Shown in pieces: positions 20,107 through 32,434 of a stretch of 36,140 nt of DNA. The stretch comes from an uncultured Spartobacteria bacterium. Lineage in GTDB: Bacteria > Verrucomicrobiota > Verrucomicrobiia > Chthoniobacterales > Chthoniobacteraceae. How positions within the stretch are numbered: position 1 is the first letter of the stretch; every line of letters begins with the position of its first letter. The DNA lies in contig CAIRYQ010000003.1 in NCBI GenBank assembly GCA_903882875.1, forward strand, positions 1 through 36,140, written 5' to 3'. The position numbers and the translations under genes were made by a program. The notes below the pieces were generated by a model that saw nothing but the letters and a program-made list of their open reading frames with translations, was not told the origin of the DNA and did not search any database.

Positions 20107-21345
20107 CTAGATTTTCAGCGCCTTGATGCGGCGTCCGACTTCCTCCGCATTCGCGCGCGAGTTGAACGCGCTGATGCGGAAGTAGCCCTCGCCTCCGGCA
20201 CCGAATCCCGCACCGGGCGTGATGACGACGTTTGCCTCGTGCAGCATCTTGTCGAACATCTCCCACGAGCCGAGCGAACCGGGGCACTTCACCCAAATGT
20301 AAGGCGCGTTCACACCGCCCCAAGTCTTCCAGCCCACGGACTGCGCCGCATCGCGGAGGATGCGCGCGTTGCCCATGTAGTGTTCGACGAGCGCGCGCAC
20401 TTGCGCCTTTCCATCTGCGGAATATAGCGCCTCGGCGGCGCGCTGGATGATGTAGGCGACGCCGTTGAATTTTGTCGTCTGCCGCCGCAGCCAGAGCGGA
20501 TGCAGCGGCTTCTTTTCGCCGGAGGCAGTCGTGGCCAACAGCGTCTTCGGCACGACGACAAATCCGCAACGCACGCCGGTGAACCCGCCGCTCTTCGAGT
20601 AGCTGCGAAACTCGATCGCGCACTCGCGCGCGCCGGGAATTTCGTAGATCGAATGCGGAATCCCGGGCTCGCTGATGTAAGTCTCGTAGGCCGCATCGAA
20701 GAGGATCAGCGTGCCATTCGCGCGGGCGTACGCGACCCATGCTTCGAGTTGCGCGCGCGTCGCGGCGGCACCGGTCGGGTTGTTCGGCGAGCAGAGGTAA
20801 ATGACGTCCACGTGCTGCTTCGGCGGCGCGGGCACGAAGCCGTTCGCCTCGTTGCCTTCCAAATACACGAGGCCCGCGTATGCGCCGCGCGCGTCGGCGT
20901 CGCCGGTGTTTCCGGCCATCACGTTCGTGTCCACATACACGGGATACACGGGATCGGTGACGGCGATGACGTTCTTCGCGCCGAGGATGTCGAGGATGTT
21001 GCCGGTGTCGCACTTCGTGCCGTCGCTCACGATGATCTCATCGTCCGCGACCTCAATGCCGTGCGCGCGGAAATCATTTTCCGCGATCGCCTTTCGCAGC
21101 CACTCGTAGCCCTGCTCGGGGCCGTAGCCCTTGAAAGTCTCGCGCACTCCCATTTCATCCACCGCCTTGTGCAGCGCGGCACGCACCGCTTCGGGCAACG
21201 GCTCGGTCACGTCGCCGATGCCGCAGCGGATCATGCGCTTCGCCGCGTCGGCATTGGAGTCCGTGAACGCCTTCACGCGGCGCGCGATTTCGGGAAAGAG
21301 GTAGCCGGCCTTGAGCTTGGAGTAGTTGTCGTTGAGAAATGCCAT
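20107..21345 (-). CDS. dapL: LL-diaminopimelate aminotransferase
   Basis: DapL converts tetrahydrodipicolinate directly to LL-diaminopimelate with glutamate as amino donor, a one-step route to lysine and peptidoglycan precursors known in Verrucomicrobia, Chlamydiae, cyanobacteria and plants. The 412-aa length matches the family. It starts [20 protein letters not shown]. Fold-type I PLP features include [23 protein letters not shown] and the PLP-lysine motif [15 protein letters not shown]. The start at 21345 is chosen on the conserved N-terminus; the upstream extension is rejected. It is transcribed towards ffs. Confidence 0.96.
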
Positions 21346-21489
21346 GGTGCTGGTGTGATTTGCGGGAGGCGCGGTGTAGTGGCGGAACGCGCGCCGGTCA
21401 ACCGCTCTGCGAGGTTCACGCGGGTGTTTTCCATTGTCCGCCGCCCGCCACGGCGAATAGCTTCCGCGCCCCATGACACCCGCATCCCA

Positions 21490-22689
21490 ATGGCAGAGCC
21501 GCTAGCCGACACGGACAAGCGCACGCGCAACGCGTGGCTCACCGTCGACACGCTGTGGTTCGCGCTTATCATCGGCGTGCTCATCCGCTCGCTGCTGAAA
21601 CCGAACAGCGGCACCGTGTTTCCGATTTTCCAAACCGCCGGCGGACGCTGGCTGCACGGCGAGAACCTCTACTCCGGTGGCACCGACTATCTCTACAGCC
21701 CGCTCGTCGCCGCGCTGTTTTCTCCGCTCGCACTCCTTCCCTATTGGCTCGCAAACATCGTCTGGCGCCTCGGCGTCGTCGCCGCGTATCTCGCTGCGGT
21801 GCGCGTATGGTTGCGCGATGGTGCAGCCCGAATTCCTGCGAAAAATCACGCGCTCGTCTTCCTCATCCTGCTCCCGCTTTCCGTCGGTAGCATCAACAAC
21901 GCGCAGGCCAACCCGCTCGTCGTCGCGCTCGTGATGTTCGCGATCATCGCCGTGCGCTCCACACGCTGGGCCGTGGCCGCCGTGTGCGTCGGCATCATTG
22001 CTTACCTGAAAATCTACCCGCTCGCCGCGGGCCTGCTGCTCTGCGTGATTTTTCCGCGGAAGCTTTCATGGCGGATCTTCGCCGTGCTGTTCGCATTCGG
22101 CGCGCTTTCGTTCGTGCTGCAAAAACCCGCCTACGTCGCCGAACAATACCACAACTGGGTCGCGACGCGACGCGTGGACGAGCGCCACTTCGATGTGATG
22201 AACCGCCCGCGCGACCTGTGGACGCTGCTCGCCGCATGCGGCATCGAGCTGAATCTGCACCTTTATTTTTTCATCCAAATCCTCGGCGGCGGCATCATCG
22301 CTGCGCTTTGTTTCGTCGGACGTTTGAAAAAGTGGGGCAATGACCGGCTGCTCACGCTCATCTTCACACTCGTGTGCTGCTGGATGCTCCTGCTCGGCCC
22401 CGCGACGGAATCCTCGACCTACATCCTGCTCGCACCCGCCATCTCGCTCGCAGCGGTCGAGGCATTCAGCCGCCCATTCCCGCAATGGATGCGCGCGCTC
22501 GTCGCAGCCGCACTCACAATTCTCATCGGCGGCGCAGCGTTCATCGCATTCGCCGGACGGCGGCGCGACCTGTGGTCCATGTCCGTCCAGCAAATCGGCA
22601 CGGTGATGTTCGCCGTGTTCGCCCTCGCGTGGGTGTTCCGGGATTCGCTCTGGCAAAGCGAGAAAGATGTCGCGAAGCCAGTGGCGTAA
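21490..22689 (+). CDS. GT87/DUF2029-like membrane glycosyltransferase
   Basis: A 399-aa polytopic membrane protein with about nine to ten hydrophobic helices. The first loop motif [20 protein letters not shown] is typical of DUF2029/GT87 polyprenyl-phosphate-dependent mannosyltransferase-like proteins, which use lipid-linked sugars and act on the outer face of the membrane. The ATG at 21490 gives a short polar N-terminus before the first helix. It is divergent from dapL, with about 145 bp between the two starts. The acceptor is unknown. Confidence 0.82.
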
Positions 22690-22722
22690 CGCTGCAATTT
22701 ACGCGGTGGCCGCAGGTCGGCA

Positions 22723-22736
22723 GGCTGGTGCCAGCC
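22723..22736. repeat. Short perfect hairpin between convergent genes
   Basis: GGCTGG TG CCAGCC lies in the 47-bp gap between the GT87-like gene and the convergent secreted-protein gene, right next to the stop of the latter. There is no T-run, so it may aid termination or be a small palindromic repeat. Confidence 0.4.
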
Positions 22737-23246
22737 CTACCGGTTCGCGTCCGCGAGCGCCTTGGCATCTGCATCCTCGGTCGCGCCCTGAGTGTGGCCG
22801 ATGATCTTCGAGTTCGCGCCGTCGAGCTTGATGACCAGGAGCCGCGAGATCCGTTTGTTGTTTTCGGGACTCGTGCTGTTGATCCGGTAAATGACCGCGT
22901 AAGGCCGGAATCCCTTCGCGGTGTGAACGCCGCGCCACTCGACGACATCGTTCGCCTTGGCCGGAAACTGCCCGCCCGCATGGCTCATGGTGGCACCATA
23001 GAGGTCCACCACGGTGTTGCCATATTTGACACTGATCCACGAGCGGTCATCACCGGCCGACAGCACGAGCTGGTAGCCACCCAAGCCAGGGCATGTCTGC
23101 GTGAACCCATCCGTGTCGTAAGTTTTATAACTCAGCGCATTCTTCCGCGCCGAACTGGTATATTCGGAGGTGGCTTTGTCCGCAGCAAATGCGACGGAGA
23201 GAAGAAGGATGCCAGCGACAACCGCACGGAGGATTGATTTGTTCAC
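22737..23246 (-). CDS. Unknown secreted protein
   Basis: A 169-aa protein with a Sec signal peptide (MNKSILRAVVAGILLLSVAFA, cleavage near residue 21). The mature domain is about 145 aa and includes YQLVLSAGDDRSWISVKYGN and WRGVHTAKGFRPYAVIYRIN. No family is recognised. It lies about 100 bp downstream of the VF530 gene on the same strand and is probably a separate unit, since a signal peptide fits poorly with the cytoplasmic redox operon upstream. Confidence 0.78.
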   Translation of the reverse strand: MNKSILRAVVAGILLLSVAFAADKATSEYTSSARKNALSYKTYDTDGFTQTCPGLGGYQLVLSAGDDRSWISVKYGNTVVDLYGATMSHAGGQFPAKANDVVEWRGVHTAKGFRPYAVIYRINSTSPENNKRISRLLVIKLDGANSKIIGHTQGATEDADAKALADANR

Positions 23247-23350
23247 GACTTCAACGAACCAAGAGACTCCTGTTCATTTCAAGCGATAAACGCGCTCCAT
23301 CACGAAGCGTCCGACCCGCTGTGGAATCCGAGGAGATCTGCCGCCTGCGA

Positions 23351-23587
23351 TTATTTTTCCTCCCGCGGAAGCTCCGCGACGAACCACGCCTCCACCTTCT
23401 GCCGCGCCCAAGGCGTCTTGCGCAAAAAGGTGAGGCTCGACTTCACGCTCGGATCGAACTGGAAGCACCGGATCGGGATGCGCCGCCCCATTTCCTCCCA
23501 GCCATGCCGGTGGACGAGCACGTTCAAAATTTTCTCCAGCGTGATGCCGTGCAGCGGATCGCGGGGATGGGAGGCGGGAGTGGTCAC
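23351..23587 (-). CDS. VF530 / DUF2132 family protein
   Basis: A 78-aa protein from a GTG start at 23587 that overlaps the stop of the 833-aa redox protein (GTGA). The core [20 protein letters not shown] followed by [20 protein letters not shown] and [20 protein letters not shown] is the VF530/DUF2132 family. It is a small helical fold, suggested to bind DNA, whose function is unknown. Overlap makes it the last gene of the cNMP/diaphorase operon, although VF530 genes occur elsewhere alone, so a functional link is not certain. Confidence 0.88.
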
Positions 23588-26085
23588 GCATCCTTCCCCG
23601 CGCCGTACAACACACGCTGCAGGATCTGCTCGCCGGTGAGCCGGTGGGCCGCGTCGTGCGGGCAGGAGGAGACGCATGTGGGCGCTGGCGAGGAGCGCGT
23701 GCTCGCCGAGTCGCAAAGGTCGCACGTCGCGGCCTTGGGCTGCGCGATTGCGACGGTGCGGCCCGGATTCGCATCGTCCGGCGCCATGTAGATCCGGTTC
23801 TGGTTCGGCACCATGAAAATGCTGCCGTACGGACAATTCGACGCGCACAGCCCGCAGCCGATGCAGTGATCCTCGATGACGATCTGGAGGTGCTTGCCGC
23901 GGTGGATCGCGTCCACGGGGCAGCCCGTCATGCAGTGCGGATCGGCACACGAGCGGCAGGACGTGGCGATGAGCATGTTGCCAAACTGCATGCCGTCGCG
24001 GAGCAGGCGCGTGACAGGCACGCCGTGCGAATCCGTGCCGTGCCGCTGCACGCAGCCGCGCGTGCATTCATCGCACCGCGTGCAGAGATCCAGATCCAAC
24101 GCGAGGATGCTCCTGCCCTCGTAAAGTCCCTGCGCCACGAATTCCGCACGCAACGGATCGGCCTCAAGATTTTCGCGCAGCCGCGCGAGGGAGATCTCCA
24201 CGAGCCTCCGCCGCACGGAGGGAAATTCGCGGATCATTTCCAGAAAGGTCATCCGCTTCACGCGAGCGAGTTCGACGAAGTTCAGCGCCGAGCATGTGGC
24301 CATGCGCTGGCCGGCGGGGATCGCGTCCTTCAGGTTTTCCCCGGCTTCGTCGAGGCGACGCCCGAGCAGCGATTCGACCTCGTCGGGCGTCCGGCGCAAA
24401 TCGTCTGCGGAAAGCGCGAGCAGCCCGATCTCGCCGAGGATCGAACCGGGGCCGCGAGGGAGGACTTTCGTCTCGCGCCCGAGCCTGCGGACGCCGACAC
24501 GCACATGCCCGAGGCGGACGACATACATCGCATCCGCATCGTCGCCCTGACGGAAAATTTCCTGCCCCGGACTCACGCCGACGAAGCTGATCCGCGGGCG
24601 GAGAAATTCCACGACGCGCTTGAAGTCGGCATCGCCGATGCCCTCGAACAAATCCGAATTTCGCAGCACGGTATCAAGCGCCCGCTGCCGGTACTTCGCC
24701 TCGAACATGTCGCGCAGGCTCGGCAGGCGCATGAGCCGATCGAGCACGTTGCGGCGCAATTCCCAGACCTCGCCTGACTCGATCGCATTCACCGTCGCAT
24801 TGCGCGGAGCACCCGTCAGGCACGCCATTTCGCCGAAGATCAAATCCTTCGGCCCCAGCTCGAATGTCGCGCCCGAATTCGCCGCCTTGCTCCCCTTCCC
24901 ACCTTGCGCACCGACTTTCACCGCGAGCCGTCCGCCTTTGATCAGGAATGCCGTGTTCCCCGGATCGCCCTCGCGGAACAGCACGTCACCCGCGCTCAAT
25001 TTTCTGCGGATGACGAGCCCCTGCTGCCACAGCAGGAACTTCGGCGGGATGCCGGCGAAGAGCGGATCGACGATCAGTTCCGCCGCCGACAACACTTCCT
25101 TCGACTTGTCACCCGGCGAGACTTGGATCCTCGCTCCGGGCTGGAATGTGATCGCGCTCGTCGGGCACGACACCATGCACTCGCCGCACTGCACGCAGTC
25201 CGAATTTCCCATCGCATCATTCAGATCGAAGCTGATGCCTGCGTTGATCCCCTTGCCCGTGCGGCCGACCACGTCGTTCGCGCGCACCTCGCCGCAGCCG
25301 CGGATGCACCGCTCGCACAGGATGCACGCGCTATGATCCACCGTGAAGACCGGCGATGAAGTGTCGAGCCCGCGCCTGCCGACATTCGGCGGCGGCTGCG
25401 GCGCGGGATTGGAAAAAACATCCAGCGCGATCCGCGAAGGCACCGCGTGGCAGCGCCCGACCATGCGGCCGAGTTCGTTGAAAGGCGCGAGTTCCTTTTC
25501 GAGCGAAGGCGGCTCGGCGGGCTTGAGATGATCCACGGCGAGAAGCTCCGTGAGCACTTTTACCGTCTGGCGCACACGGTCGCCATCCGCGCCCTCGGCG
25601 TTCATCGTGAAGACCTCCATGCCGTCCTTCACCTGATGCTGGCACGCTGGAAGCAGTTTGCGCTCGGCGGCTCGCTTGCCGCGCTTCTGCCCGTAAATCT
25701 GCACGACGCACAGGCGGCAAACGCCGACCGGCGTCATGTGCGGCTGGTGGCACAGCGTCGGGATTGGGATCTTCGCCTCGTCACCCACGTCCTTCACGTA
25801 GAGCTGCGCGGCGGCGGCGTAGATCGTCGTATAGACGGGCGTCGTGCGCCCCTCGATGTCCTGCACGATGTTGCCGTCCGCGTCCTTCCGCGGCTCGGCG
25901 AGTGGGACCGTGACGGGCTGGCCGTCAATTTGAAGCGTGACGGTCTTGCGGTAGTCCGACTCCGTCGGCGAATCGAGACGGACGAGCTGGCCGTCAATGT
26001 CGCGGCTGAAGAGTCCCTCGTCGTCATCGCGGACGAAAAGCCCCTCCGGCTCGGGCATGAATGATCCGTCGTCTGTCCCAGGCAT
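23584..26085 (-). CDS. NuoG/HoxU-like, twin cNMP-binding, polyferredoxin fusion
   Basis: An 833-aa cytoplasmic multi-domain redox protein. Residues 45-150 hold a plant-type [2Fe-2S] site (C112, C123, C126, C148). The following region keeps His186 of the Complex I N5 site, but its Cys ligands are absent. Two [4Fe-4S] sites follow (C254/257/260/264 and C297/300/303/307). A cNMP-binding domain occupies about 350-470 ([16 protein letters not shown]) and a second about 478-645 (GEIGLL, then RMATCSAL after a roughly 40-residue insertion). Residues 660-820 form a DmsB/HybA-like polyferredoxin with four Cys groups ([41 protein letters not shown]...CVSSCP). The start overlaps the NuoEF stop (TAATG). 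It probably passes electrons from NAD(P)H under nucleotide control; the ligand and acceptor are unknown. Confidence 0.88.
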
Positions 26086-28139
26086 TATTGCGCGTCTCCT
26101 TTCGGTTGCCCCGCGGCGGCGAGATGCCGCGCGATGTCATCGGGGAAAAATGTGATCAGCGTGCGCCACGGCATCGGCACCGAGCGGCCGAGCCCGCAGA
26201 TCGAAGCCATCTCGATCGCCTTGCCGAGTTCCGTGATGAGCGGAGTCAATTCGTTCTTCCAGCGATCCGCCGCGATTCCGCCGTCGAGCAGATGCGCGCC
26301 GAGCGACGCAAATTTCTGCGAGCCCGTGCGGCACGGCACGCATTTGCCGCACGATTCGTTGCGGAAAAATTCCGCGGACTTCACCGCTTCCGCAGCCATG
26401 TCGCGGCCCTCGGCATACACGACGAGCCCCGCGCCGAGCGCCTGCGTGGGGCTCAGCGCGCGGAAAAGATTCAGCTCCAGTTCGAGATCGAGGATGTCGA
26501 GTTCCGTCACCGCAGGATCGAATCCGCGCCGCGCCGCGAGCGCCTGCCATTCCTTTTTCTCGGTGTGCCCGCGCGGCAGTCCGCGCGCCGCCGTGAGCTT
26601 CGCCGGCAGGAATCCGCCCGATGGGCCGGACGGCGCGAGCGCCTTCAGCTTCCGGTCGCCCGCCATGCCTCCGCAGTACTGCTCGCCGTGGATGAGTTCG
26701 CGCAGCGTGAGGCCCATCGGCACTTCGAAGACGCCGGGCCTTTTCACATCGCCCGAGATCGAAAAAAAACGGCATCCCTGCCAGCCGTTCACGCCCTGCG
26801 CGGCGTAACTTTTTCCACCGTGGATCAAAATGTACGGCACCCACGCAAACGTCTCGACATTGCTCACGAGCGTCGGGAGATCGATCAGGCCGTTCGTCTC
26901 CAGCTTCGGCGGCATGTTGCGCGGCTCGCCACGGCGGTCGGACATCGCCTCGATGAGCGCGCTCTGCTCGCCGCAGATGTAGCCGCCAGGACTCACGAAA
27001 ACCGAGACCGGAAACGGCCTGCCGAGAGCCGTCGCATTTGCACCGCAGAAACCCATCGCCTCCGCACGGCGGATCTCCGCTTCGCACGCGGCGATCTGCT
27101 CGGCGTATTCGTGCCGGATGTAGATGAAGCCCTGTGACGCCTCGGTGATCAGCCCCGCGAGGATCACGCCCTCGACAATCGTGTGCGGCGCGCGAAGCAG
27201 CAGCTCGCGATCCTTGAAGGTCGCGGGCTCGCTCTCGTCGCCGTTCACGACGATGAACGCACGGTCGTCGCCTCCGCGTGCGCGCGCATTGCGCACCGCA
27301 TCGCGCACGTCCTTCCACTTTTGCACCGCGGGAATTCCCGCGCCGCCCATGCCCCGGAGATCCGCGGCTTTGATCTCGTCGAGCAGCGCGTCGGCCCATC
27401 CGCCGAGCGACGGATCGTTCGCCCAGTCCGCCGCCGTCTGCCACTCGATCACCGCGTCGGAAACCACGTCGCCCAACGACGGCTCAGGAATGGGCTGGCC
27501 GATCGCGCCGCGGCGGAACTGCTCGATCTTGTCCGTCCCCCATTTGCGCGTTTCGGCGAGCACCTGTCCGGCGGATGCGATGGATGCATCGCGCGCCGCG
27601 ATCACCTTTTTCACGGCAAGATACTCCGGCGGAGCGCCGCGATACGGATCGATCGCCCACTCGTGCGAGGGAAATTTTTGATCCGCGTCGTGATCGCACG
27701 CAGGCGGGGAATCGTCCCGGCACGCGTCGAGGATCGTCTTCATCTCCGCAGCCGAGCGCCCGAGAAAATACGTCTCGTGTTCCGCTCCGCGGATCTCCAC
27801 GCACGCCGCCGGCGCGCGGTCGCAGCGCCCGAGGCACGACACGCCCTCCACAGAAATCTGGTCGTCCGCCGTCGCCCCGATGTCGCGCAGGATCGCCGCC
27901 GATCCCGCGAGATGGCACGACATGTCGCGGCACACGCGCAGGGTGATTTTTTTCGGGGGAGAAAGGCGGAAGTGCGGGAAAAAACTCGCGACCGCCTGCA
28001 GCCGGTGCAGCGGCACGCCGGAGTCCTTCGCGAATTCCTCCAGCGCCTCGCGCTTCAGGAATCCGTGCTCATGCTGGATGCGCGTGAGCGCCGGGACGAG
28101 CGTCGCCTCGTATGGAACGCGCACATTGCGGCCGCTCAT
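26085..28139 (-). CDS. NuoE-NuoF (HoxE-HoxF-like) fusion diaphorase
   Basis: A 684-aa flavoprotein that should oxidise NAD(P)H or reduce NAD(P)+. Residues 1-140 are NuoE-like with a thioredoxin-fold [2Fe-2S] site (C70, C75, C102, C106). Residues about 160-684 are NuoF-like: RGMGGAGIPAVQKW (261-275), NGDESEPATFKDREL (299 on), and GGYICGEQSALIEAM for FMN and NADH. The N3 [4Fe-4S] ligands are C597, C600, C603 and C648 (SCGKCVPC, SICGLG). All cofactor sites look intact. The start MSGRNVRVPYEATL at 28139 fits NuoE; the longer frame is rejected. It overlaps the next gene by one base. There is no Complex I membrane subunit nearby, so it is a soluble diaphorase. Confidence 0.92.
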   Translation of the reverse strand: MSGRNVRVPYEATLVPALTRIQHEHGFLKREALEEFAKDSGVPLHRLQAVASFFPHFRLSPPKKITLRVCRDMSCHLAGSAAILRDIGATADDQISVEGVSCLGRCDRAPAACVEIRGAEHETYFLGRSAAEMKTILDACRDDSPPACDHDADQKFPSHEWAIDPYRGAPPEYLAVKKVIAARDASIASAGQVLAETRKWGTDKIEQFRRGAIGQPIPEPSLGDVVSDAVIEWQTAADWANDPSLGGWADALLDEIKAADLRGMGGAGIPAVQKWKDVRDAVRNARARGGDDRAFIVVNGDESEPATFKDRELLLRAPHTIVEGVILAGLITEASQGFIYIRHEYAEQIAACEAEIRRAEAMGFCGANATALGRPFPVSVFVSPGGYICGEQSALIEAMSDRRGEPRNMPPKLETNGLIDLPTLVSNVETFAWVPYILIHGGKSYAAQGVNGWQGCRFFSISGDVKRPGVFEVPMGLTLRELIHGEQYCGGMAGDRKLKALAPSGPSGGFLPAKLTAARGLPRGHTEKKEWQALAARRGFDPAVTELDILDLELELNLFRALSPTQALGAGLVVYAEGRDMAAEAVKSAEFFRNESCGKCVPCRTGSQKFASLGAHLLDGGIAADRWKNELTPLITELGKAIEMASICGLGRSVPMPWRTLITFFPDDIARHLAAAGQPKGDAQ

Positions 28140-28269
28140 GCGCGCGCACCTCCCCGCGCGGCATGGCTTCCCTGCGAAGCGGCACATGCACGCTGCGATT
28201 TGCACTCGGGGAAATTTTCTCGTGCGCCGGACGACACGCCCGCGTTTCTAGCGACGCGGCGAAAGGCGG

Positions 28270-29376
28270 TCAAAGTGATTTCACCAGCGGCAGCACGATC
28301 ACAAAGATCGCGCCGCGCCCCGGCTCCGAACGCGCGCGGATGCGCCCTTTGTGCGCCTCGATGATCCGCTTGCAAATCGAGAGCCCGAGCCCGGTGCCCG
28401 TCCTTTTTCCGAACGTCGCGAACGGCTGGAACAGCCGCTCCGCGATTTCCGGCGCGATGCCCGTGCCCGAGTCCTCAACCTCGACCTGCAATTCATCGTC
28501 CGAGAGTGAAAACCGCAGCGTCACCGTGCCGCCGTCGGGCATGAAGTCCGCGGCGTTGTTGATCAGATTGTAGAACGCCTGCACGAGCCGCCGCTCATCA
28601 ATGTTCACCGGCACGCCGGGCGGCCGCGTTTCGCACACGATCTTCACCCCGCGGTCGCCTGCGAGCGGGCCGACCTCGTCGAGCAGCACGCGCACAAAAT
28701 CACGGAACGCCATCGGCGCGAGCACGACCGTGCCCGGCGTCTGCCGCGTGAAGTCGAGCACCTCGTTCACCATCGTCGTCAGCCGTTTCACCTCACGGCG
28801 GATCATGCCCGCGGCCATCGTGCGGGTCTCGCCCGGTGTGTCGTCCGCGCCCGCGAGATCGGTGGCGACGCTGATGATGTTCAGCGGATTTTTCAGATCG
28901 TGTACGACGGACTGCGCAAACCGCCCGACAAGCGAAAGCCGCCCCGCCTCGAGCAGTTCCTCGACATGCCGCGCATTCGACTCACGCATGCGGTTGGAAA
29001 AATCACGCATCAGCGCAAACATCAGATCCGGCGACTGCGAGAAGACCCGGTGGACATCGTCAATCGGCAGGAAGCGCAGCACCGAGTCAGCATCCGCGCG
29101 CGCCGAGGCGGAGCGGGGCTTGCCGTCAATGATCGCCATCTCGCCAAAAATCCCTCCCCGCCCGATGCGTGAGAGCACGCGCTGCTCCGCATCCTTCGCC
29201 CCGATCACGATGTCCACGCGGCCGCCGTCCACGACATACATCCCGTCGCCCGCGTCACCTTCCTGGAAAATGATTTCACCCGCAGGCACGCGGAGCGCCT
29301 TCACGCCACCGAGGTTTTTGCGCAGCTCGGCGTCGAGCAATGCAATGAAGGATTCGGCTGGTGAAACGGCGGCCAT
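28270..29376 (-). CDS. cNMP-binding-domain sensor histidine kinase
   Basis: A 368-aa soluble kinase with no transmembrane helix. The N-terminal cNMP-binding fold spans about 15-125 (FGEMAIIDGKPRSASARA is the phosphate-binding cassette). A dimerisation/phospho-acceptor helix has H159 in VVHDLKNPLN. The ATPase domain shows the N-box NLINNAADF (270-278), DSGTGI (302-307) and GTGLGL (327-332). No response regulator is encoded near it, so it is an orphan kinase. It lies 130 bp upstream of the NuoEF gene on the same strand, and its input domain is of the same type as the two in the 833-aa protein, which suggests a shared signal. Confidence 0.93.
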   Translation of the reverse strand: MAAVSPAESFIALLDAELRKNLGGVKALRVPAGEIIFQEGDAGDGMYVVDGGRVDIVIGAKDAEQRVLSRIGRGGIFGEMAIIDGKPRSASARADADSVLRFLPIDDVHRVFSQSPDLMFALMRDFSNRMRESNARHVEELLEAGRLSLVGRFAQSVVHDLKNPLNIISVATDLAGADDTPGETRTMAAGMIRREVKRLTTMVNEVLDFTRQTPGTVVLAPMAFRDFVRVLLDEVGPLAGDRGVKIVCETRPPGVPVNIDERRLVQAFYNLINNAADFMPDGGTVTLRFSLSDDELQVEVEDSGTGIAPEIAERLFQPFATFGKRTGTGLGLSICKRIIEAHKGRIRARSEPGRGAIFVIVLPLVKSL

Positions 29377-29470
29377 CGGCGTGGATGCGGCGCGAATCTG
29401 GTTCGGACCGCAGGCACAGACAAGCCCGAAGCCCGCCGGTGCCAGACTTGCGGCTCAACCGCGGGGCATC

Positions 29471-30415
29471 CTACCCGGCGCGCTGATCCGCCTTTTCAAA
29501 ATGCCGCGCCTTCACGCCCCATACGATGAACACCGCGCCGATCCCGTACATGAAGAGCGAGAGGAACTGGCCCGCGGAAAACGATCCGACGGCCCACGCG
29601 GGATCGGGTTCGCGGAACATCTCGCCGATGATCCGCGTCGTGGCGTAGAGAATGAAAAACGATCCCGTGAGCACGCCGCGCGGCATGCGGCAGCGCGTGC
29701 GCAGGAGCCAGAGGACGGTGAACATCAGCACGCCTTCGAGCAGCGCCTCGTAGAGCTGCGACGGATGGCGGGGCGTGAGATTTTCCCGCAGCACGCGCTC
29801 GGTCTCCGCGTCGCGCGGAATGGTCTCCACGATTTCTCCGATGGGACGCTGCAGCGCGTCTGCGACCTTCGGCGCGATGTCGTCGCGGCCGACCGGCGTG
29901 TCGAGCAGCTCGCGCGGGAATTGCACGGCCCACGGACACGATGCGGGCGCGGGTTTGCCGATGAGTTCGCCGTTGATGAAATTGGCGCAGCGCACGAGGA
30001 ACAGCCCGGTGGTCGCGACGACGCAAAGCGTGTCGCCGATGCTCGTCCACGAGACCTTCCATTTCCGCGAGAGCACGAAGGTAACGATCACGAGCGCGAG
30101 GATTCCGCCGTGGCTCGCCATGCCGCCTTTCCACACCTCGAACATCCACCACGGATTTTCGTGCGGCTCCTTGAAGCCGTAAAAAAGGATCCACCCGACA
30201 CGCCCGCCGAGCAGAACACCAAAGAGTCCCGCCCATGTGATGAAGTCCGCGACTTTTTCCGGCGGGATATCCGTGTAGCCGCGCCTCGCGAGATGACGGT
30301 AGAGCCAGAATCCGACGAGCGCGGAGAGCACGTACGAAAGGCCGTACCAGCGCGGCCCGTAGCCGTGGAAGCTGAAGACAAACGGGCCGAATGAGTGGAG
30401 AAAGGTGGCGAGCAC
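29471..30415 (-). CDS. lgt: Prolipoprotein diacylglyceryl transferase
   Basis: Lgt transfers diacylglyceryl from phosphatidylglycerol to the lipobox Cys of prolipoproteins in the inner membrane. The 314-aa protein has about seven hydrophobic helices. Conserved features are MASHGGILA (catalytic-type His at 102), the Lgt signature RCANFINGELIG (from residue 142), HPSQLYEALLEG and TTRIIGEMFREPD. A periplasmic loop of about 40 extra residues (DDIAPKVADALQRPIGEIVE) separates the signature from HPSQ, longer than in E. coli Lgt. It lies upstream of the kinase gene on the same strand. Confidence 0.95.
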   Translation of the reverse strand: MLATFLHSFGPFVFSFHGYGPRWYGLSYVLSALVGFWLYRHLARRGYTDIPPEKVADFITWAGLFGVLLGGRVGWILFYGFKEPHENPWWMFEVWKGGMASHGGILALVIVTFVLSRKWKVSWTSIGDTLCVVATTGLFLVRCANFINGELIGKPAPASCPWAVQFPRELLDTPVGRDDIAPKVADALQRPIGEIVETIPRDAETERVLRENLTPRHPSQLYEALLEGVLMFTVLWLLRTRCRMPRGVLTGSFFILYATTRIIGEMFREPDPAWAVGSFSAGQFLSLFMYGIGAVFIVWGVKARHFEKADQRAG

Positions 30416-30467
30416 GCGTGGCTTCTGCCACAGCGCGGCGGGGCGTGTCAGCGACTTTGCGCGCCGG

Positions 30468-32063
30468 TCACTTCGCGAGCTTCAGATTCGCGAGGACGGT
30501 CGGGAGCGCCTCGGCTCTCAGCGGCACCGCTGCGGCCGCGGGAGCGGGTGCTGCGACTGTCGAAAGCGGAGCTGCGGCCGCGGGGACGGCTGCGGGAGCC
30601 GGGGTCTTCTTTTTCTCGTGCTCATCTTCCGGCGCGAGCTTGAAGGAATGCGGGCCTTCGTCGTCGTGGCCGAGCATCTTTTTCCGCCGGTCGAGTGCCT
30701 GCCGCATCTTCGCCTTGTTCACTGCGAGCAGCATCGCGGTCTCCTCGGTGATCTTCTTTTCCTCGTAGGCCTGGCAGAGGCTGCCATCGAAGGTGGTCCA
30801 GCCCTCCTGACTCGACTGCGTGATGATGTCGTGCAGGCTGCGCACGTCGTTTTCACCGAGCTGGACTGCCTCGCGCGAGCGCATGTTGCTGCCCATGATT
30901 TCGGGGATCATCACGCGGCCGCCGCCGATCTTCGGCGCGAGGCGCTGGCTCACGACCCAGCGCAGCGTCTCGGCGAGGCGCTCGCGCACCTGCGATTCCT
31001 CCTCCTTGCTGAACATGCCGAGCACGCGGTTGATGGACTGCGTGGCGCTGATCGTATGCAGCGTGGAAAAAACCGTGTGCCCCGTTTCCGCGGCGGTGAG
31101 CGCGATCTCCATCGTCTCGCGGTCGCGGATTTCGCCGACGAGGATCACCTTCGGCGCCTGCCGGAGCGCCGCGCGCAGGCCCATTGCGAAGCTGGAAAAA
31201 TCCTTGCCCATCTCGCGCTGGCAGAAGGTCGCCTGCTTGTGCGGGTGCATGAATTCCACGGGGTCTTCGAGTGTGACAATGTGCATCGCGTGCTCCTCGT
31301 TGAGGCCGTTCAGCATCGCGGCGAGCGTGGTCGTCTTGCCGCTGCCCGTCGCGCCGGTCACGAAGATGAGCCCGTTTTTCTCGGCGATGATTTTTTTGAA
31401 GACAGGCGCGAGCTTCAGATCGTCCATCGTCGGGATCTTCGTGTTCAGCTTGCGCAGCACCATCGCGAAGGTGCCCTTCTGCTTGAAGACATTTACGCGG
31501 AAGCGCGCGAGGCCCTCGACGAAATACGAGCAGTCGCACGAGCCTGTGTTGCGCAGATCGTCGAGCAGGCGCTGGGCTGTGCCGACGAGCGAATGCGCGA
31601 GCCCCTCCGTCTGCTGCGCGGTGAATGCGGGCGAAAACTTCGTGCCGTCCACCGCGGTGAGCTTGCCGAAATTTTCCACCTGCGGCGGACGCCCGACCAT
31701 GAAGAACAGGTCGCTCACGCCTTCGCCCACTCCGAGCATCGCGCGGAGCAGATCGTCAATCGGGATCGGCGGCACGGAAAAAATCGGCGCTCGAGGATCG
31801 CCGATGCCGGACGCGACAGGCGCCTGCGCCAGTGCAGGCGCGGGCGCGGGCGGCGTGTGGCTGACTGGCGGAGCGGCCGGTGCCGATGCGGGCGCAGGTG
31901 TACTTTGAATGGGCACATGGATCGTCCGCGCAGCGGGTGCGTGGACCTGCGGGTGAAGTTGTGCGGCGGGCGCGGGCTGGATTGTCCGGGCGGCCGGGGT
32001 TTCGTTGTTTGCGACGCCCGTGGGCGCCCCGATGATCTTACCGTTCTTGTCGTAGAGTGGCAT
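30468..32063 (-). CDS. PilT-like type IV pilus/secretion ATPase
   Basis: A 531-aa hexameric ATPase of the PilT/GspE superfamily, probably powering pilus retraction (twitching). The central 350 residues carry Walker A GATGSGKTTTLAAML, the Asp box TLEDPVEFMHP, Walker B-type RQAPKVILVGEIRD and the His box GHTVFSTLHT. The PilT C-terminal AIRNLIRE motif is not found; RSREAVQLGEND stands in its place, so this may be a PilU-like or specialised paralogue. Long Pro/Ala-rich N-terminal (about 20-110) and C-terminal (about 485-525) extensions are unusual. The start at 32063 (MPLYDKNGK) is the first ATG before the low-complexity segment. It is divergent from rpmI. Confidence 0.9.
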   Translation of the reverse strand: MPLYDKNGKIIGAPTGVANNETPAARTIQPAPAAQLHPQVHAPAARTIHVPIQSTPAPASAPAAPPVSHTPPAPAPALAQAPVASGIGDPRAPIFSVPPIPIDDLLRAMLGVGEGVSDLFFMVGRPPQVENFGKLTAVDGTKFSPAFTAQQTEGLAHSLVGTAQRLLDDLRNTGSCDCSYFVEGLARFRVNVFKQKGTFAMVLRKLNTKIPTMDDLKLAPVFKKIIAEKNGLIFVTGATGSGKTTTLAAMLNGLNEEHAMHIVTLEDPVEFMHPHKQATFCQREMGKDFSSFAMGLRAALRQAPKVILVGEIRDRETMEIALTAAETGHTVFSTLHTISATQSINRVLGMFSKEEESQVRERLAETLRWVVSQRLAPKIGGGRVMIPEIMGSNMRSREAVQLGENDVRSLHDIITQSSQEGWTTFDGSLCQAYEEKKITEETAMLLAVNKAKMRQALDRRKKMLGHDDEGPHSFKLAPEDEHEKKKTPAPAAVPAAAAPLSTVAAPAPAAAAVPLRAEALPTVLANLKLAK

Positions 32064-32224
32064 GGTTGGCGGCGCTTGCGATTGCAGGTTCCGTGCCTCT
32101 GCACAAAGTTGAGCGTCGAGAGGACCCGCCGTTTTTCCGATCTCCCAACCTTCAACTTTCAACCCCCAGCCTGCCCTGAGAAAGTGGTTGCCATCCGCAC
32201 TTCGACCGCTACTTTCCGCGCCCC

Positions 32225-32434
32225 ATGCCAAGAGCCATCGCACGTCGCAAGACGAAAAAATCAGCTTCCAAGCGGTTCAAAGTGACCGCGACGGGGAAGA
32301 TCATGCGCCGTAAGCCGGGCCTTCGCCACCTCGCATCGAGCAAGAGCTCGAAGCGCAAGCGCAAGCTCGGCAAAGACGGCCAGGTCCACGAGACAATGGT
32401 GGACCGTATCAAAGAGTGCCTCCCGTTCGCGTAA
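32225..32434 (+). CDS. rpmI: Ribosomal protein bL35
   Basis: A 69-aa large-subunit ribosomal protein, very basic, with the L35 pattern RRKTKKSASKRFKVTATGKI and RRKPGLRHLASSKSSKRKRK. It is followed by rplT in the usual order. infC, often the first gene of this operon, is not upstream here; the neighbour is a divergent PilT-like gene, so transcription must start in the 32064-32224 gap, where no convincing promoter could be picked. Confidence 0.95.
   Translation: MPRAIARRKTKKSASKRFKVTATGKIMRRKPGLRHLASSKSSKRKRKLGKDGQVHETMVDRIKECLPFA

Follow-up and report, generated by a model that had tools for sequence, protein, structure and literature searches.

We examined a 36,140-nucleotide stretch of DNA (the window: positions 1 to 36,140 of contig CAIRYQ010000003.1, forward strand, assembly GCA_903882875.1) from an uncultured Spartobacteria bacterium of the Chthoniobacteraceae (Verrucomicrobiota), and in it a compact set of reverse-strand genes built around NuoEF, an NADH:flavin mononucleotide (FMN) module, and P833, a protein of 833 amino acids (aa) in which two cyclic nucleotide monophosphate (cNMP)-binding domains lie between two iron-sulfur (FeS) parts. 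An earlier note, made from the letters alone, had called this a cNMP-gated soluble diaphorase locus; its coordinates and domain calls agree with Pfam and the sequence, and both of the gene overlaps it described, TAATG and GTGA, were verified. The overlap of the last three genes is likewise real, the third of them being VF530, which the note's title did not name. The features are:

26085 to 28205, reverse strand: NuoE-NuoF fusion (NuoEF), the NADH:FMN module, with one 2Fe-2S cluster, an FMN fold and one 4Fe-4S cluster
23584 to 26085, reverse strand: P833, with a NuoG/HydA-like head, tandem cNMP domains and a four-cluster polyferredoxin
25132 to 25968, reverse strand: P833 head, about aa 40-318, Fer2_4 plus two Fer4 clusters assigned by motif; 2Fe-2S ligands C112, C123, C126 and C148; 4Fe-4S ligands C254/257/260/264 and C297/300/303/307
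24706 to 25053, reverse strand: P833 cNMP domain A (PF00027), about aa 345-460, phosphate-binding cassette E419 and R428
24166 to 24663, reverse strand: P833 cNMP domain B (PF00027), about aa 475-640, E552 and R594
23641 to 24108, reverse strand: P833 polyferredoxin, about aa 660-815, DmsB/HydN-like, four 4Fe-4S sites (C668...C808)
28270 to 29376, reverse strand: soluble cNMP-histidine kinase of 368 aa (Pfam, sequence), with PF00027 at aa 29-114, HisKA at 151-214, HATPase at 260-364 (Pfam) and His159 as putative phospho-acceptor
23351 to 23587, reverse strand: VF530 (PF09905, E 3.3e-31), putatively a small DNA-binding protein, whose gene shares GTGA with the P833 stop

All 28 FeS cysteines of P833 are kept in all 18 full-length homologues, so the domain arrangement is not a product of chance. 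The NuoG/HoxU-like module named in the earlier note stands for the 2Fe-2S and the two 4Fe-4S sites of the head, which are kept, and falls short at the NuoG His-Cys cluster motif, absent from the same 18 proteins. Both cNMP domains exceed the PF00027 cut-off and carry the cassette Glu and Arg that mark the CRP/PKA type. All 22 rows keep both residues in domain A; of the 18 full-length rows, all keep the domain B Glu and 17 keep the Arg. The gap between the domain B Glu and Arg measures 36-42 residues in every full-length homologue and 8 in two short ones. As a predicted fold, the cNMP pair comes closest to PKA regulatory subunits (Foldseek E 1.6e-15). It is plausible that the cNMP pocket can bind a ligand and that a nucleotide may gate the protein.

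The Pfam scores of NuoEF all exceed the curated cut-offs (PF01257, 81.1 against 24.8; PF01512, 125.4 against 31.2; PF10589, 64.6 against 23.5), and the protein also carries an SLBB domain. The in-frame ATG at 28139, giving 684 aa, is the more likely true start: the alignments of 15 of 22 relatives begin only at residue 21-35, and the two same-genus relatives were called at 684 and 700 aa. Two further NuoF genes occur in the window's genome, one on contig C72 and one, a NuoE-NuoF fusion, on contig C69. On C72 (L002 1-2718) we saw a NuoE-NuoF fusion together with a formate-dehydrogenase-like alpha subunit in which the motif for the His-Cys cluster is retained.

As the earlier note had stated, the locus holds no hydrogenase, formate dehydrogenase or membrane (Nuo) subunit of respiratory complex I: none was found among the nine proteins scanned (20107-32243), nor did these contain a catalytic hydrogenase or molybdopterin domain beside the NuoEF/NuoG parts. 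The flanks hold lgt, pilT, an aminotransferase and a glycosyltransferase. A 169-aa reading frame at 22737-23246, downstream of the locus, had no Pfam or NCBIfam match at E 0.001.

Relatives of the NuoEF-P833 pair and their candidate cytochrome partners

The full-length P833 gene was found in 23 of the 213 genomes of the window's order, spread over 10 of 45 genera; many of these genomes are fragmentary metagenome-assembled genomes (MAGs). A separate scan of a contig collection gave 24 loci, 23 of them true relatives, all from Verrucomicrobiota and many assigned by record title to Spartobacteria, Chthoniobacterales or Chthoniobacteraceae. The remaining locus, from Actinomycetospora, matched at 35% over 58 residues and was discarded as a fortuitous ferredoxin similarity. 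The Nonomuraea and Tritonibacter plasmid matches, in which NuoEF-like genes lie beside proteins of 924-997 aa resembling mainly the P833 head, were set aside, as was one further plasmid match annotated fdhF.

At 22 of 23 loci NuoEF immediately precedes P833, the 23rd contig starting inside P833; this pairing supports the earlier proposal that NADH enters through NuoEF into P833. The kinase was not conserved in the same way. An orthologue lies beside the pair in one of the 23 relatives' loci (tblastn; several contigs end upstream of NuoEF), which speaks against the suggestion that the kinase reports the same signal. We rejected it as a component of the system; it appears to be a lineage-specific neighbour of the pair. 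VF530, found beside the pair in none of the 23 loci, was rejected as well and is probably not part of the system. At some loci the picking of open reading frames (ORFs) let longer overlapping frames hide known genes, and tblastn or genome-search coordinates were used where this was relevant.

Three cytochrome genes recur near the pair, encoding a cytochrome-b-like membrane protein (c2), a decahaem cytochrome (c3) and a trihaem c554-like cytochrome (c4). c2 lies within the examined flank of NuoEF-P833 in 9 of 23 loci, accompanied by c3 in these nine and by c4 in most of them, and at 7 of 22 loci (L041, L045, L049, L050, L051, L055 and L056) the decahaem gene immediately precedes NuoEF on the same strand. 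c3 is membrane-anchored, with ten CXXCH motifs and one hydrophobic segment, and c2 adjoins a decahaem cytochrome wherever its surroundings were read. The window's own genome carries c3, c2 and c4 together on another contig, C89, at about 48.4-52.3 kb (L085). Across the order, a profile search found c2 in 22 of the 23 P833 genomes versus 27 of the 190 others (Fisher 2e-15, a guide only, as it ignores kinship). The lone P833 genome without c2, G393, has a completeness of 68%, and the contig with its NuoEF breaks off some 0.5 kb upstream of that gene. By co-occurrence and linkage, the cytochrome b-decahaem-trihaem set is now a candidate for what the earlier note had left as an unknown acceptor, and the description of the locus as a soluble diaphorase is probably incomplete, its ferredoxin end appearing to serve a membrane complex.

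c2 carries four histidines in two H-x13-H pairs (H99/H113 and H282/H296 in the C89 gene), conserved in 47/47, 47/47, 46/46 and 43/43 of those aligned among 47 homologues, Sphingobium included. Such a pair spacing is the ligand pattern of di-haem cytochrome b. Hydrophobic segments span both histidine regions in several homologues, the first region not in all, and the Sphingobium homologue matches PF01292 at E 1.4e-4, under the cut-off. Because of the histidine pairs and the homology to this weakly matching protein, we regard c2 as a candidate di-haem cytochrome b. Its AlphaFold model, made from nine sequences and of low confidence, has a mean predicted local distance difference test (pLDDT) score of 71.

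Relatives that have c2 and lack P833 were informative about the role of P833 itself. In 24 of 27 such genomes a short cNMP-ferredoxin (about 560 aa or longer) is encoded right beside c2; in G427 it lies on another contig, and in G489 and G517 (78% and 76% complete) it was not found. Conversely, a short-ferredoxin query at E 1e-20 recovered only P833 itself from the 23 P833 genomes, and nothing from one 62% complete MAG. The two ferredoxins are thus complementary in occurrence, with one doubtful exception, G414, a MAG with 7% contamination in which a small extra contig carries a short cNMP-ferredoxin and a second c2. Within one genus, the slot between c2 and c4 holds the short gene in L155 and lacks it in L088 and L089, and the sister genomes without it have NuoEF-P833 elsewhere. 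A c2 tree built by a quick method from 43 genomes, of which 19 have P833 and 24 the short ferredoxin, shows at least six changes of state, four of them forced by well-supported branches. The tree leaves out four of 47 rows (the second G414 copy, G140, G320 and Sphingobium) and, their cytochrome b being missing or fragmentary, the P833 genomes G393, G458, G461 and G514 as well as G489, G494 and G517. Because P833 and the short ferredoxin repeatedly exchange on the same cytochrome b, P833 is best explained as the ferredoxin subunit of a cytochrome b complex, in which it would replace the shorter cNMP-ferredoxin of relatives.

A second pair of genes may point beyond the periplasm. The LVIVD-decahaem protein (about 1300-1400 aa, ten CXXCH, LVIVD repeats) is preceded by c9, a barrel-like protein with no Pfam match and a C-terminal tyrosine. 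LVIVD-decahaem occurs in 48 of the 213 genomes, 43 of these being among the 49 c2 genomes, with matches within the order 61-92% identical to the L049 query copy. It lies on C120 in the window's genome (L171 6226-10410); five relatives (G395, G398, G404, G524 and G564) have it on their P833 contig, and it also occurs on plasmids of Sphingobium and Sphingopyxis (13 of 72,556 records). LVIVD-decahaem and c9 together suggest a path across the outer envelope. A gene for an HbpS-like haem-binding protein (PF03928) was seen repeatedly near the barrel-like and LVIVD-decahaem genes (L172 3729-5384, L016 873-2405 and others).

Other NAD(P)H modules are joined to the same core. In Sphingobium, the cNMP-polyferredoxin forms a fusion with a thioredoxin-reductase (TrxR)-like flavoprotein; a c2 homologue (hhalign probability 99.1) comes next, then a decahaem cytochrome. 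In six other Verrucomicrobiota genomes (L016, L017, L190, L193, L194 and L195) an NqrF/FNR-like gene precedes the cNMP-ferredoxin, with decahaem and LVIVD-decahaem genes following in the same cluster in all of them except L017; the ORF choice passed over a single gene in each of L190 and L195 (cytochrome b and the barrel-like gene). This convergence of unrelated modules supports NAD(P)H as a likely redox partner of the core, though not its only one. The NqrF/FNR-like protein of L017 (6166-7824), encoded just upstream of the cNMP-ferredoxin, also has an FHA domain (E 6.4e-19), which may point to a link with phospho-peptides. Two plasmids typed as conjugative carry genes of the conserved set: Sphingobium herbicidovorans pMSHV (L010 8849-21293) has the TrxR-cNMP-ferredoxin fusion, cytochrome b, decahaem, barrel-like and LVIVD-decahaem genes, and on Sphingopyxis indica pMC4 (L196 8405-18104) LVIVD-decahaem, barrel-like, HbpS-like and c554-like genes were seen.

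A proposed electron path and its competitors

On balance we lean towards the NuoEF-P833 pair feeding electrons from NADH, in this group of soil and freshwater bacteria, into a multihaem conduit that spans the envelope, plausibly switched by the cNMP pair. NADH would be oxidised by NuoEF at FMN, and electrons would pass along the FeS chain of NuoEF to the P833 head and polyferredoxin. From there they would reach the putative di-haem cytochrome b in the inner membrane, the membrane-anchored decahaem and the trihaem c554-like cytochrome, and probably go onward to the barrel-like and LVIVD-decahaem pair in the outer envelope; the last acceptor, we infer, would lie outside the cell. The wiring from NADH through NuoEF/P833 and cytochrome b to the multihaem set we consider probable and, given that wiring, an outward direction of flow highly probable.

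The PKA-like cNMP pair, placed between head and polyferredoxin, would most likely bind a cyclic nucleotide and so switch the transfer. In at least 7 of 23 genomes, versus 0.73 expected, a class III cyclase is encoded no more than 8 kb from P833, five of the seven being one genus; cyclases near the locus occur in three genera, and four cyclase matches were counted in the window's genome. The cell probably makes a cyclic nucleotide, and we put the chances of putative nucleotide gating through the P833 pair at about even. More tentatively, the whole might act as an electron valve: a second messenger binding the tandem PKA-like domains would directly open or close the flow of NADH electrons, past the quinone pool, through cytochrome b and the multihaem cytochromes to the exterior, with the input subunit swapped repeatedly (NuoEF-NuoG, TrxR-like, NqrF-like or none seen) while valve and conduit are kept.

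Several observations weigh against this proposal. P833 is rare, occurring at full length in 2 of 387 genomes sampled across the phylum, and the fragmentary state of many of the MAGs makes gene absences soft. The window's own pair stands apart from the cytochromes, and c2 is missing from the DNA examined at 14 of the 23 loci of relatives, at some because contigs end. No NAD(P)H module lies beside the short ferredoxin in the P833-less relatives read within the order; therefore NADH need not be the universal donor. The Pfam scan of c2 gave no match above cut-off and the Foldseek search with its model none at E 0.001 or better, the 50 VIA matches listed being receptors, helical sensor domains and the like, with no cytochrome b among them. 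The predicted structure of P833 is poor outside the cNMP part (mean pLDDT 54). cNMP domain B is split by an insert, its Glu was not seen in two distant short homologues, and none of the three listed cyclase matches of the window's genome is on the window's contig.

The insert in domain B and the positions of the listed cyclases also favour an explanation in which the wiring is right, the cNMP domains are structural relics without ligand and electron flow is ungated: site B has its spacer of 36-42 residues, and the window's contig has no listed cyclase match. cNMP-fold domains without ligand are well known. We nonetheless consider this explanation rather unlikely, given the near-complete retention of the cassette Glu and Arg at both sites and the cyclases near the locus in three genera. 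The conduit could instead run inwards, from multihaem cytochromes through cytochrome b and P833 to a NuoF that reduces NAD+. FeS-flavin diaphorases are reversible in principle. CymA and CbcL/MtoC/MtrH have been proposed to run in either direction (PMC6295460). Inward flow nevertheless seems improbable to us: NAD+ reduction would need an energy input, for which no gene was seen in the loci read, and the Chthoniobacteraceae described in PMC11596606, which may or may not carry P833, are polysaccharide-using heterotrophs without Wood-Ljungdahl or Calvin pathways.

Quite improbable, in our estimate, is a soluble NADH:ferredoxin-type diaphorase that works for a different metabolic enzyme, with the link to cytochromes reflecting shared ancestry only. 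That c2 was not found near the pair, either in the window or at 14 of the 23 loci of relatives (some contigs ending close by), would fit it; the linkage in the other nine, the co-occurrence in 22 of 23 genomes and the six or more alternations with the short ferredoxin argue the other way. An electron-bifurcating Bfu (HydABC-like) enzyme with a new third substrate is the least credible of these explanations. Its NuoE/NuoF/NuoG-like composition is matched here, and the best PDB match of NuoEF is bifurcating HydB. Bfu enzymes are defined, however, by a BfuB with clusters B1-B5 and a BfuC with C1, all five BfuB clusters being required and homologues without B2-B5 being non-bifurcating (PMC9304861). 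NuoEF has ligands for one 2Fe-2S cluster, in the NuoE part, and one 4Fe-4S cluster only, its NuoF part stopping at a single 4Fe-4S domain, and we rejected bifurcation on this ground.

Comparison with known systems

If our proposal is true, an FeS chain wires NADH into a cytochrome b-multihaem conduit and a second-messenger receptor is built into the wire, linking signalling to respiration without transcription. It would also offer a specific proposal for 'ET in IM', a step which the model of He et al. 2017 leaves unspecified for Verrucomicrobia (PMC5615132). The core is present on Sphingobium plasmids and in other Verrucomicrobiota too, which makes it testable in cultured bacteria such as Sphingobium herbicidovorans. 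In our searches of the open-licence PubMed Central (PMC) literature we found no paper joining cyclic nucleotide-binding domains with multiheme cytochromes, and no established name for the short cNMP-ferredoxin/cytochrome b/decahaem operon. That operon has the same cNMP-polyferredoxin, cytochrome b and decahaem partners as the P833 system; it differs in having no NuoEF/NuoG part, its input being NqrF-like, a TrxR-like fusion or not identified.

Like the NuoEF/HoxFU/HydABC-type modules, the pair has NuoE and NuoF domains and a NuoG/HydA-like head with one 2Fe-2S and two 4Fe-4S sites. Unlike them, the P833 head has no His-Cys cluster and is fused to cNMP domains and a polyferredoxin, and the locus has no hydrogenase, formate dehydrogenase or quinone module. 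The porin-multihaem clusters of He et al. 2017 (PMC5615132) resemble the present genes in combining multihaem cytochromes with a barrel-like protein in Verrucomicrobia. Going by their published description, they may differ in the cytochrome: a porin there stands beside a periplasmic cytochrome with eight haem sites; here c9 adjoins a ten-CXXCH protein and the cytochromes have ten sites or three.

In CbcL/MtoC/MtrH, CymA and ImcH, as proposed here, inner-membrane cytochromes feed periplasmic multihaem c cytochromes (PMC6295460). The inner-membrane entries to extracellular electron transfer CymA, CbcL and ImcH work with quinones, and CbcL/MtoC/MtrH is likewise proposed to exchange electrons with them; here NADH electrons would enter by an FeS chain. 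The proposed system may thus resemble the membrane entry to porin-cytochrome electron export (PMC6295460, PMC5615132), with NADH in place of quinol. In gene architecture, CbcL joins b and c parts in one fusion (PMC6295460), whereas cytochromes b and c are separate genes here.

A cNMP domain on an NADPH flavoprotein has already been published in the form of a cNMP-thioredoxin reductase fusion (PMC6544261), which, as described there, differs from P833 in having one cNMP domain, no FeS clusters and no cytochromes; the Sphingobium TrxR-cNMP-polyferredoxin is nearer to it than P833 is. With the PKA regulatory subunit, finally, P833 shares two consecutive cNMP domains with canonical cassette residues, and it departs from that subunit in being prokaryotic, in the insert in site B and in the FeS modules that flank the pair in place of a kinase inhibitor.

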